Shown here one piece after another: positions 18,593 to 21,384 of a stretch of DNA of 64,000 nt. This DNA is from Chelatococcus asaccharovorans (GTDB lineage Bacteria > Pseudomonadota > Alphaproteobacteria > Rhizobiales > Beijerinckiaceae). The stretch covers positions 124,001 through 188,000 of the forward strand of contig NZ_QJJK01000011.1 in assembly GCF_003201475.1 (NCBI RefSeq). The letters are read 5' to 3'. Position 1 is the stretch's first letter. Every line of letters starts with the position of its first letter. The notes under the pieces are model-generated. The model was not told the origin of the DNA and made no database searches. It saw only the letters and a list, made by a program, of their open reading frames with translations. The position numbers and the translations under genes are program-made.

Positions 18593-18627
18593 CACAACGC
18601 TGAAGTTAGGCCAGCACGAGAACCTCC

Positions 18628-18769
18628 GTGTCATCCCCGGCGGTGGCCAAAGGCCGCCGGGAAGGGGATCCATGGGAGAAGATCCATGAGAAGAGGATCC
18701 ATGAAGCTCGGCGCGCTCGATCTCTGGATCCCCTTCCCGGGCTGCTGCGCAGCCCGCCGGGGATGACAC
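18628..18769. repeat. Large inverted intergenic repeat, family A
   Basis: The outer arms GTGTCATCCCCGGCGG (18628-18643) and CCGCCGGGGATGACAC (18754-18769) are perfect inverted copies. Inside, each arm continues with a secondary hairpin and a GGATCC-containing segment (GGGAAGGGGATCCA against TGGATCCCCTTCCC). Variants occur at 21259-21376, 29887-30210 and 36968-37113. With the family B unit it fills the gap 18479-18817, which holds no gene. Confidence 0.8.
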
Positions 18770-18817
18770 GAGCGCGAGAATGCGCCCTCAAGTTGAATGT
18801 CGATTGATCCTCGCCGC

Positions 18818-19996
18818 CTACTCCTCAGCGCCGTCGTAGCGGGCGCGGGGGCGGATGAGCCGTCCGTCCGCGAGCTGTTCCAGCGCATGGGCGATCCATC
18901 CGGCCGTACGGCCGACTGCGAACAGCGTGAAGGCCGCGCCGCGCGGCAGGCCCAAGGCACGCCTGAGGGAAACAAGCGCGAAATCGACATTCGGCCGCTT
19001 GCCGAGCGCGCCGACAGCGGCGATGAGCGCGTCACGCTCACCATCAGACGGCAGCCGGCCGAGCAGCGCGACCGCGCGCGGGTCGCCATCCGGGTAAAGC
19101 GGATGGTCGAAGCCCGGCAGGAGGTCGCCGCGCCACAGGCGCTCGTCGACCACGCGCGCGGCATCCCCCGTGCGCTCGATCTCGTCGAACAGGATTTCGA
19201 CGAGGCTCGTGGTGCCGCCGTGGCGCGGTCCGCTCAGGGCCGCGAGCCCGCCGACGAGCGCGGCCGCGAGCGAGGCGCCGGTGGACGCGACGACGCGCAC
19301 GGCAAAGGCGGATGCATTGAGCTCGTGGTCCGCCAGGAGAACGAGCGCCGCGCGCAGGTGATCGACCCGCCGATCGCCCGGATCAAGCCGCCAGGCCTCC
19401 GCCAATACCGCCTCGATCGGTGCGGTGCTTGGCGCACGGCCGACCGCGGCGCCGGCCATCGTCCGCAGCAGCGCAGCGCCAGCGGGCCAGATGAGACGCG
19501 GTTCGCGCCGCCAGAGCGTCGCGCTCGCGCCGGGCATCAGCGGCAGGAGTGCCGTGCATCGCTCCGGCAGGGGGCGCGCCGCCATCAACCGCGAGAGTTC
19601 ATCCCACGCAGGCTCCACCGCCGGCAGGGGCGCCGCGAAGGGATCGCTGTCGCCGCAGCCCCAGAGCAAGGCGGCCACCGCCTCGAAGGAGGCAGTCGCC
19701 GCGAGCTCCAGCGCGTCATGGCCACGGTAGCTCAACCTGCCGCCTTCGATGCGCGTGATATGCGACGTAAGCACGGGCACACCCCAGTCGAGGGTGCTCG
19801 CCGCGATACGCTCAGGCTTCCGCCCCCGCCGCTTGCGCGTCACGAGGCCGTCGATATCGGTGGCGCTGTAGAGGCTGCGTCGCGGATCGCCCGCATCCGG
19901 CACGGCCCGCACCAGCCCTCGGCTCACATAGGCATAGAGCGTTGCGCGGCTGACACCGAGCCTCTCCACCGCCTCGCCCGCGTCGATGACGTCCAC
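18818..19996 (-). CDS. Citrate synthase family protein with N-terminal helix-turn-helix
   Basis: The 392-residue protein joins a MerR/excisionase-like helix-turn-helix (residues about 5-55, DAGEAVERLGVSRATLYAYV plus the SLYSATDIDGL wing) to a citrate synthase domain (about 75-390). Citrate synthase residues visible are His224 (ADHELNAS), His259 (GPRHGG), His298 (GFDHPLY) and Asp338 (RPNVDF). It is divergent from a second, HTH-free citrate synthase gene, with AT-rich dyads between them. HTH-citrate synthase proteins are known as a family, but their DNA-binding role is unproven. It may be an enzyme that senses acyl-CoA or oxaloacetate and regulates its partner. Confidence 0.87.
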   Translation of the reverse strand: MDVIDAGEAVERLGVSRATLYAYVSRGLVRAVPDAGDPRRSLYSATDIDGLVTRKRRGRKPERIAASTLDWGVPVLTSHITRIEGGRLSYRGHDALELAATASFEAVAALLWGCGDSDPFAAPLPAVEPAWDELSRLMAARPLPERCTALLPLMPGASATLWRREPRLIWPAGAALLRTMAGAAVGRAPSTAPIEAVLAEAWRLDPGDRRVDHLRAALVLLADHELNASAFAVRVVASTGASLAAALVGGLAALSGPRHGGTTSLVEILFDEIERTGDAARVVDERLWRGDLLPGFDHPLYPDGDPRAVALLGRLPSDGERDALIAAVGALGKRPNVDFALVSLRRALGLPRGAAFTLFAVGRTAGWIAHALEQLADGRLIRPRARYDGAEE

Positions 19997-20010
19997 GGCA
20001 CTGACCTTAT

Positions 20011-20034
20011 ATTGATAATATCAATCAATATTGA
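20011..20034. promoter_or_regulatory. Candidate operator dyads between the citrate synthase genes
   Basis: ATTGATA-A-TATCAAT (20011-20025) is a perfect 7-1-7 inverted repeat. It is immediately followed by the perfect palindrome TCAATATTGA (20025-20034). They lie in the 85-bp gap between the HTH-citrate synthase and its divergent paralogue, an AT-rich island in GC-rich DNA. The HTH-citrate synthase is the obvious candidate ligand. Confidence 0.55.
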
Positions 20035-20081
20035 CGATATGCATCGTTGGATCAAGTTATCTCCGACAAAGGAGACAAGCA

Positions 20082-21158
20082 ATGTCTGTTGGACTTGATG
20101 ACGTTGTCGCGGCCGAAACCGCCCTGAGCCATGTCGATGGCGAGGCCGGACGCCTGATCATCCGTGGCTTCGACCTCGAAGAGCTCGCCGGACGCCAGAG
20201 CTTCGAGGCGGTGTCGAGCCTGTTGTGGCGCGATCTGGCCGCGGCCGGCGACGCAATGGCCGTTCGCCACGCGCTCGGCGCGGCGCGCGTCGCAGCCTTC
20301 CCGATCGCCGAGCGCCTCCTGCCGATGAGCGCCGGCTTGAGCCCCGTGGAAGCGCTGCGACTGATGCTGTCCGGGCTGTCCGATGCCTCGCCCATTCCGG
20401 GCCATGTCCTTGTGACGGCGGCCATGCCGGTCTTCGTCGCCGCCATCACCCGCCATCGCGACGGATTGGCCCCGGTCGCGCCGGACGCGGCGCTGGGACA
20501 GGCGGCGGACTTCCTGCGCATGCTGCGCGGCCAGGCGGCATCGCCCGCAGAGATCCACGCGCTCGATACCTATCTCGTCACGGTCATCGACCATGGTCTC
20601 AACGCCTCGACCTTCACGGCGCGGGTCGTCGCGTCGACACGCGCGGGCATGGTCTCGTCGGTCATCGCAGGCCTTTGTGCGCTCAAGGGGCCGCTGCACG
20701 GCGGTGCCCCCGGCCCCGTGCTCGACATGCTCGATGAGATCGCCACGCCCGAGCGGATCAGGCCATGGCTCGAACAGGCGCTCGATAACGGCGAGCGGCT
20801 GATGGGCTTCGGCCACCGGGTCTACCGCGTGCGCGATCCCCGCGCCGATGTCCTGAAGCACGTGGCCGCGACACTGCGCGCCGGCGCCAACCGTATCCAG
20901 TTCGCCGATGAGGTGGAAAGGGCCGCGCTCGCCATCCTGGCGGAGCGCAAGCGCTCACGCCCGCTGCAGACCAACGTCGAGTTCTATACGGCACTCGTGC
21001 TGGAGGCCCTGGCCTTGCCGCGCGAGACCTTCACGCCCGTCTTCGCGGTGGGACGCGTCGCCGGCTGGGCGGCCCATGTCCTGGAGCAGGAAGCGGCGAA
21101 CCGCCTGATCCGCCCGCAATCCCGCTATGTCGGCCCCTTGCCGAAAAGAGCGGCTTAA
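20082..21158 (+). CDS. Citrate synthase/methylcitrate synthase paralogue
   Basis: A 358-residue citrate synthase-fold enzyme, shorter than the classical 430-residue type and without an HTH. Conserved histidines are His171 (DHGLNAS), His206 (GPLHGG) and His245 (GFGHRVYR). The usual catalytic aspartate position reads Glu300 (TNVEFY), a change common in the short citrate/methylcitrate synthase group. The start at ATG 20082 follows a GGAGACAAGC ribosome site. The reaction is probably condensation of an acyl-CoA with oxaloacetate or another 2-oxoacid. It is divergent from the HTH-bearing paralogue, so the two may form a hetero-oligomer or a regulatory pair. Confidence 0.87.
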   Translation: MSVGLDDVVAAETALSHVDGEAGRLIIRGFDLEELAGRQSFEAVSSLLWRDLAAAGDAMAVRHALGAARVAAFPIAERLLPMSAGLSPVEALRLMLSGLSDASPIPGHVLVTAAMPVFVAAITRHRDGLAPVAPDAALGQAADFLRMLRGQAASPAEIHALDTYLVTVIDHGLNASTFTARVVASTRAGMVSSVIAGLCALKGPLHGGAPGPVLDMLDEIATPERIRPWLEQALDNGERLMGFGHRVYRVRDPRADVLKHVAATLRAGANRIQFADEVERAALAILAERKRSRPLQTNVEFYTALVLEALALPRETFTPVFAVGRVAGWAAHVLEQEAANRLIRPQSRYVGPLPKRAA

Positions 21159-21258
21159 GTCGGGACGAAGGCGCTCGCGCGCTCGGCCCGTGTTATCCTC
21201 GGCGACGCGCTGCCTGACAAAACGCTGATTAAATCTGGCCCGCTGGGTTCCATCCTCA

Positions 21259-21376
21259 GTGTCATTCCCGGCGAAGGCCGAAGGCCTGAGGGAAGGGAAT
21301 CCAGCTCACTTTTCAGGAGAGGTCGTGGTCATGGATTCCCTTCCCGGGCTGCTACGCAGCCCGCCGGGAATGACAC
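21259..21376. repeat. Large inverted intergenic repeat, family A variant
   Basis: The outer arms GTGTCATTCCCGG (21259-21271) and CCGGGAATGACAC (21364-21376) are inverted copies. The inner segments GGGAAGGGAATCCA and TGGATTCCCTTCCC are also complementary. It lies between the convergent ends of the citrate synthase and DapA-family genes. Confidence 0.8.
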
Positions 21377-21384
21377 GTAGGCTC

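Follow-up and report, generated by a model that had tools for sequence, protein, structure and literature searches.

The citrate synthase paralogue with an N-terminal helix-turn-helix (HTH) domain in the window (the whole 64,000-nucleotide stretch of Chelatococcus asaccharovorans DNA analyzed here) is very likely a one-component transcription factor, which would act on a 26-bp operator between its own gene and a divergent citrate synthase gene, use the citrate-synthase pocket as a sensor, and control both genes. The gene architecture, the conservation of the putative operator (hereafter, the element), and its linkage to the gene family were established by comparison. The region contains the following features:

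18818..19996, minus strand: HTH-citrate synthase gene (ORF of 392 aa, GTG start)
18818..19783, minus strand: citrate synthase domain with H259, H298, D338, R307, R363, and R382 (Pfam and alignment)
19781..19816, minus strand: linker, residues 61-72 (AlphaFold pLDDT <50)
19817..19996, minus strand: winged HTH, residues 1-60 (profile matches and AlphaFold model)
Within 19817..19996, minus strand: recognition-helix region, about residues 16-27 (SRATLYAYVSRG)
20003..20008, minus strand: Shine-Dalgarno-like AAGG(TC) of the HTH gene, abutting the putative operator (read from the sequence)
20009..20034, minus strand: putative operator TCAATATTGATTGATATTATCAATAT, 26 bp, with three half-sites TCAA / TTGA / TCAA (exact match to the family consensus)
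20011..20025, no strand: perfect 7-1-7 dyad, which is not what is conserved among the sites (pattern scan and site alignment)
20012..20028, no strand: inverted repeat TTGAT-N7-ATCAA, half-sites 2 and 3 (alignment of 163 sites)
20025..20034, no strand: 10-bp palindrome TCAATATTGA, half-sites 1 and 2 (sequence and alignment of sites)
20070..20074, plus strand: Shine-Dalgarno-like AGGAG of the HTH-free citrate synthase gene (read from the sequence)
20082..21158, plus strand: PRK12350-type citrate synthase paralogue without the HTH, 358 aa, with Glu for the catalytic Asp (NVEF) (NCBIfam and alignment)

The preliminary description of this DNA had placed a MerR/excisionase-type HTH ahead of an apparently complete catalytic domain, and a winged HTH followed by a full PF00285 domain with intact active-site residues was indeed found. 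PF00285 covered residues 71-384 (E 1.1e-61; 209.3 bits against the Pfam cut-off of 27), and residues 6-53 gave HTH_17/MerR matches below the cut-offs of Pfam (HTH_17, E 9.2e-5; 23.1 against 27 bits); of 72 family members aligned, 71 gave an HTH_17 match at E<=0.01 (best E 2.1e-12). In the AlphaFold model, the winged HTH consisted of helices 6-13 and 17-25, strands 31-34 and 37-44, and helix 45-69, and a citrate-synthase fold followed after the linker (mean pLDDT 93.1). Foldseek matches of the HTH model in the PDB were all weak: SoxR was the best (E 0.011, no E-value being <0.001), and GlnR-DNA (TM 0.66), BldC, and phage Xis were found with MarR-family chains interleaved. The HTH profile gave no match among PDB chains at E 0.01. 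When 168 distinct proteins from 176 loci were aligned (L092 and identical proteins were left out), the citrate-synthase domains of the family had a median identity of 42%, yet L20, Y21, V24, S25, and R26 of the recognition helix were invariant in 168/168.

From motif and spacing relative to the E. coli and pig citrate synthases, we take H259, H298, and D338 to be catalytic and R307, R363, and R382 to bind carboxylate. All six were kept in 160 of the 168 proteins. The second His and the Asp were lost, with all three arginines kept, in L015, L016, and L049; other changes affected the second His (L146, L157, and L164) or one Arg (L185 and L186). L016 is a second HTH-citrate synthase of the same genome (G000:C10:286955-288100, on contig C10), and both it and L015 of a relative keep the element; no divergent citrate synthase was found at these two loci. 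An opine-dehydrogenase-like ORF (by eye) adjoined this second HTH-citrate synthase (L004), and a similar ORF was near the HTH gene of L105.

These active sites bear on a different reading, in which the protein would mainly be a functioning citrate or 2-methylcitrate synthase isoenzyme and the HTH would serve autoregulation only, without metabolite sensing. We consider this unlikely. The six residues intact in 160/168 speak for it, and selection could keep enzyme activity rather than sensing; on the other hand, the degenerate sites of L015, L016, and L049 suggested that catalysis is dispensable in at least some members. The gene pair in the window also resembles Caulobacter citB and citC, two neighbouring citrate synthase paralogues of which, in an E. 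coli gltA mutant, CitB was functional and complemented but CitC did not, as far as the available text of PMC7083601 describes. The likeness lies in the pairing of paralogues. No operator or HTH is mentioned in that portion of the source; if CitC is an HTH member, its failure beside a functional CitB would favour a regulator over an isoenzyme.

The HTH-free paralogue proved to be divergent from the HTH gene across an AT-rich, dyad-bearing gap, as originally described: the product of the plus-strand gene scored 420.6 bits, above the 332 that NCBIfam sets as cut-off for PRK12350, and the GC content was 0.30 at 20000-20059 against 0.63-0.80 in the flanking coding windows. The same cut-off was exceeded in 1 of 14 control genomes. 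Glu replaced the catalytic Asp of the partner enzyme in 128 of the 129 loci with a partner-type match of at least 250 bits, whereas the Asp was kept in 165/168 HTH members. Mycobacterial CitA (PDB 8gmk, 6wgy, and others) was the closest solved structure to the window protein, and the titles of its PDB entries name pyruvate-bound and citrate-bound forms. By alignment, CitA and the PRK12350-type partner both have Glu at the catalytic Asp position; unlike the HTH protein of the window, CitA and the PRK12350 citrate synthases carry no HTH and are enzymes rather than regulators. Another, higher-scoring citrate synthase of this genome was found on contig C3. The gene pair is flanked by a dispersed palindromic repeat (GGGCTGCTNCGCAGCCCGCCGGG.ATGACA; 18739-18761 and 21346-21368, plus strand) within flanks of about 18620-18770 and 21255-21378, with 17 genome copies at <=2 mismatches (control, 0).

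Both dyads that had been described in the gap were present, and only one of them belonged to the conserved element. The family consensus was TCAATNTTGATN7ATCAAYNT, with half-sites TCAA, TTGA, and TCAA at positions 1-4, 7-10, and 20-23 of the 26 bp; half-sites 1 and 3 formed a 19-bp direct repeat. Across 163 aligned sites, the TTGAT-N7-ATCAA repeat was paired at 5/5 positions in 125 and at 4/5 in the other 38. What these alignments show to be conserved is the 10-bp palindrome together with a third half-site. The perfect 7-1-7 dyad was ruled out as the operator because all seven pairs occurred in only 1/163 sites, and it belongs to the window's own site: it gave one match in the window at <=2 mismatches (0.03 expected), its exact form was unique in the genome, and 10 further places matched at 1-2 mismatches. 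The 3' end of the element was a median of 18 nt (range, 1-64; 12 in the window) upstream of the position aligned with residue 1 of the window protein, and its 5' end preceded residue 1 of the partner citrate synthase by 47-172 nt (117 loci); a protein bound at this position would sit at the transcription or translation start of the HTH gene itself. On the gene side, information fell to about 0.05 bits within five bases of the element; upstream, the first five bases carried 0.4-0.9 bits and those beyond them mostly <0.3, with 0.4-0.5 at -21 and -24.

Of the 176 HTH-gene loci in which conservation was assessed, relatives supplied 10, a search of the order 86, and contigs of named genomes 80 (the best of 398); these loci were merged into 169 distinct upstream regions. 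The pattern TCAATNTTGATNNNNNNNATCAAYNT was found at <=2 mismatches in 163/169, exactly in 100, and 11 of the 26 positions were invariant in the 163 aligned sites; reversed-pattern and reversed-sequence controls gave 0/169 even at 5 mismatches. Since the pattern was defined on this set itself, loci fetched later weigh more. Among class loci fetched after the pattern had been fixed (29, of which L257 was dropped at a contig edge), the element was found at <=2 mismatches in 23/28, and both controls gave 0/28 at 5 mismatches; the five misses were L233 (an extra spacer base), L235 (3 mismatches), L244 and L249 (4), and L256 (HTH not aligned). A further 25 plasmid loci were chosen by hand from the 60 listed among 81 matching records; 22 of them had the element and L202, L206, and L212 did not. 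Chance as the source of the element was ruled out by the backwards, reversed-pattern, and reversed-sequence controls.

The six misses among the 169 upstreams were L049, L101, L104, L148, L163, and L165. L148 was counted because its site runs beyond the scanned stretch, and it was not among the misses of a later 227-locus set; L049 and L101, the latter with a complete active site, were without the element. Spacer variants were one base longer (L104 and L233) or shorter (L202), and no match at <=4 mismatches was found in L206 and L212, whose identity to the family is among the lowest. In L163 and L165 (genomes G347 and G372), a different palindrome, TGATCAA(C/T)GTTGATCA, was found upstream of the HTH gene in place of the element; a TRAP-transporter-like ORF (by eye) precedes the HTH gene in L163. 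Where the divergent citrate synthase pair was conserved, 118 of 120 distinct upstreams kept the element at <=2 mismatches, and comparative footprinting of the gap was thus positive.

Within the HTH, Asn at residue 23 was accompanied by an ACG flank (TTGACGTCAAT...) before the element in 27/27 cases, against 2/189 with Tyr. The Asn clade includes L208, L214, L215, and L223, and the ACG flank may be a changed or added contact. As proof of contact, this association was rejected: residue 23 changed once on the tree, so that the link to ACG is not independent evidence and carries little weight.

The element was also specific at the genome level. Among 397 genomes from the order, 56 contained the exact element, each of them once (backwards control, 0), and by coordinates 53 of the 56 sites adjoined the HTH gene. 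The exceptions were G391, in which the protein had no match at E 1e-45, and a single site in each of G347 and G372 (two genomes of one genus), where it lies between coproporphyrinogen-oxidase-like and AbrB-like ORFs (by eye). Expressed by genome, the exact element occurred in 55/90 with a protein match (E<=1e-45; a partial match in G396, a genome outside the locus set, was included) against 1/307 without (Fisher p 4e-42, descriptive only because the genomes are related); many of the 35 genomes with the gene and without the exact element have it with 1-2 mismatches. In the C. asaccharovorans genome, there were only two sites at <=2 mismatches (0 and 1; none at 2), one before each HTH-citrate synthase gene. 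A regulon beyond these two genes was therefore not found at <=2 mismatches; at 3 mismatches, 19 further sites appeared against 1 control match, and weak extra targets are possible.

The TTGAT half-site invites the alternative that another regulator with TTGAT/ATCAA half-sites, such as one of the FNR/FixK type, reads the element and that the HTH protein does not bind it, which appears highly improbable. The half-site is identical to that of the FNR/FixK box, TTGAT-N4-ATCAA, and the sites of G347 and G372 away from the HTH gene and beside the two ORFs named above would suit such a factor. The spacer is 7 in the window, not 4, and the N7 form was found in 163/169 upstreams; the FNR box has no counterpart of the first half-site of the element, which lies outside it. 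A genome usually contains numerous sites for an FNR-type factor, in contrast to the single exact site beside the HTH gene in 53/56 genomes, and the element accompanies this gene in Betaproteobacteria and, with a shorter spacer, on one Deinococcus plasmid. That the element instead represents the core promoters (-35/-10) of the two divergent genes, which would overlap there and be preserved for the sake of RNA polymerase, is scarcely credible: TTGACG at 20030-20035 (plus strand) could serve the citrate synthase gene as its -35 box, but a consensus scan of 19900-20120 called its one promoter-like site elsewhere, eleven invariant bases in three half-sites at a fixed spacing fit a core promoter poorly, and the exact element was absent from 306/307 genomes without a protein match.

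Plasmid loci of Burkholderiaceae separated the regulator gene from its presumed site. In six of the 25 examined (Burkholderia cepacia, B. multivorans, B. cenocepacia, Paraburkholderia hospita, P. sprentiae, and Caballeronia sp. SBC1; the P. hospita record was unannotated and its layout was judged from ORFs), the HTH gene was the last gene of an SDR-MFS-VOC operon, and no site at <=2 mismatches was found directly before it. Two oppositely oriented sites were located in the promoter region of the operon, which is shared with a divergent D-glycerate dehydrogenase gene. By this comparison, the element goes with the regulator rather than with the start of its gene.

The divergent partner was also exchanged. 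By similarity, it was a class III CoA-transferase in 35/176 loci (PF02515 was confirmed on both tested), and other partners were MFS with 2-hydroxyacid dehydrogenase, or 2-hydroxyacid dehydrogenase with FAA-hydrolase family and SDR genes. On the Deinococcus plasmid, where the spacer is one base shorter, an HMGL-like enzyme was divergent, the relatives of which are homocitrate, isopropylmalate, and citramalate synthases. On a Roseomonas plasmid (L207), a DUF2332 gene faced the HTH gene across the exact element, which suggests that this gene, the function of which is not known, is linked to the same signal. In a FastTree phylogeny of the citrate-synthase domain, there were at least 5 switches between a citrate synthase and a CoA-transferase as partner, and the element was kept at <=2 mismatches in 138/142 distinct proteins with a citrate synthase partner and 39/39 with a CoA-transferase partner. 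Among 217 distinct proteins from 227 loci, the element was found at <=2 mismatches in 206, at 3 in 1, and at no fewer than 4 in 10; for this count, any locus exceeding 3 mismatches beside the gene was scanned over its full length at <=1 mismatch, which brings in the operon cases. A conserved wider operon was rejected because the genes beyond the pair differed in the eight loci compared (by eye, protein starts), three rhizobial loci among which resembled each other beyond the pair.

The preliminary description had suggested a metabolic enzyme that binds its own promoter and couples the acyl-CoA or oxaloacetate level to transcription. An operator in the protein's own divergent promoter was strongly supported by comparative genomics (163/169 upstreams, 23/28 later loci, the genome-wide linkage, and the operon loci), and for the HTH-citrate synthase family this candidate is supported as well as comparison alone allows. 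A possible coupling to oxaloacetate or acyl-CoA is suggested by the retained active-site residues and the kinds of adjoining genes.

From these data, we infer DNA binding, the dimer geometry, the sign of regulation, the ligand, and any remaining catalysis, and the mechanism beyond binding is conditional throughout. Judging from the fold, a dimer would be held together by the citrate-synthase domain, bind the three half-sites at 20009-20034, and control both divergent genes. Because the element ends 12 nt before the start codon of the HTH gene and abuts its ribosome-binding site, binding should shut off this gene (autorepression), and the partner citrate synthase would be repressed or activated from the same operator. 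The retained pocket (three arginines and His/His/Asp) may sense an oxaloacetate-like 2-oxoacid and/or acyl-CoA and alter the affinity for DNA, by which production of the partner enzyme would be matched to substrate supply.

In comparison with known systems, the HTH-citrate synthase resembles the MocR/GabR regulators, in which, according to the accessible part of PMC5320631, a GntR-type winged HTH is fused to an aminotransferase-like domain, an enzyme fold used as a sensor, and the binding motifs, of two to four repeats, show symmetry of the direct and/or inverted kind. Pfam gave HTH_17/MerR with citrate synthase in place of the GntR HTH with aminotransferase fold, so that both the HTH family and the enzyme (citrate synthase instead of aminotransferase/PLP) differ, and active-site residues are mostly intact in HTH-citrate synthases. 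By analogy with MocR, the protein would belong with the known one-component regulators that have an enzyme-derived sensor. Among the weak Foldseek matches of the HTH model, SoxR, GlnR, and BldC are MerR-family regulators, and MarR-family chains were interleaved with them. The GlnR/TnrA box is TGTNA-N7-TNACA, and TTGAT-N7-ATCAA of the element has the same layout. Unlike in the MerR family, the effector part would be a whole citrate synthase domain behind a flexible linker, a third half-site is conserved in the element, and the MerR and HTH_17 matches of the window protein were below the Pfam cut-offs. A literature search (titles and the beginnings of abstracts among the matches listed, with most subscription journals outside its coverage) found no description of the fusion as a regulator or of its operator.

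Taken further, we lean towards the view that the HTH-citrate synthases form an undescribed, widespread family of transcription factors with the citrate-synthase fold as metabolite sensor, in which one near-invariant operator would be kept in Alpha- and Betaproteobacteria (with the shorter spacer in Deinococcus) and the controlled enzymes (citrate synthase, CoA-transferase, HMGL-like condensing enzyme, and 2-hydroxyacid dehydrogenase modules) would be exchanged. As most members retain their active-site residues, the switch might respond to substrate turnover and not to occupancy alone. If this view is right, many "spare" citrate synthases of bacteria would be gene switches, present annotation would mislead metabolic models, and the failure of some paralogues to complement citrate synthase mutants could be explained. 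An enzyme fold of central metabolism would also be added to the enzyme-derived sensor domains. The element provides a ready-made operator candidate, which would bring the partner enzymes, some of which have no known substrate, under one shared signal.
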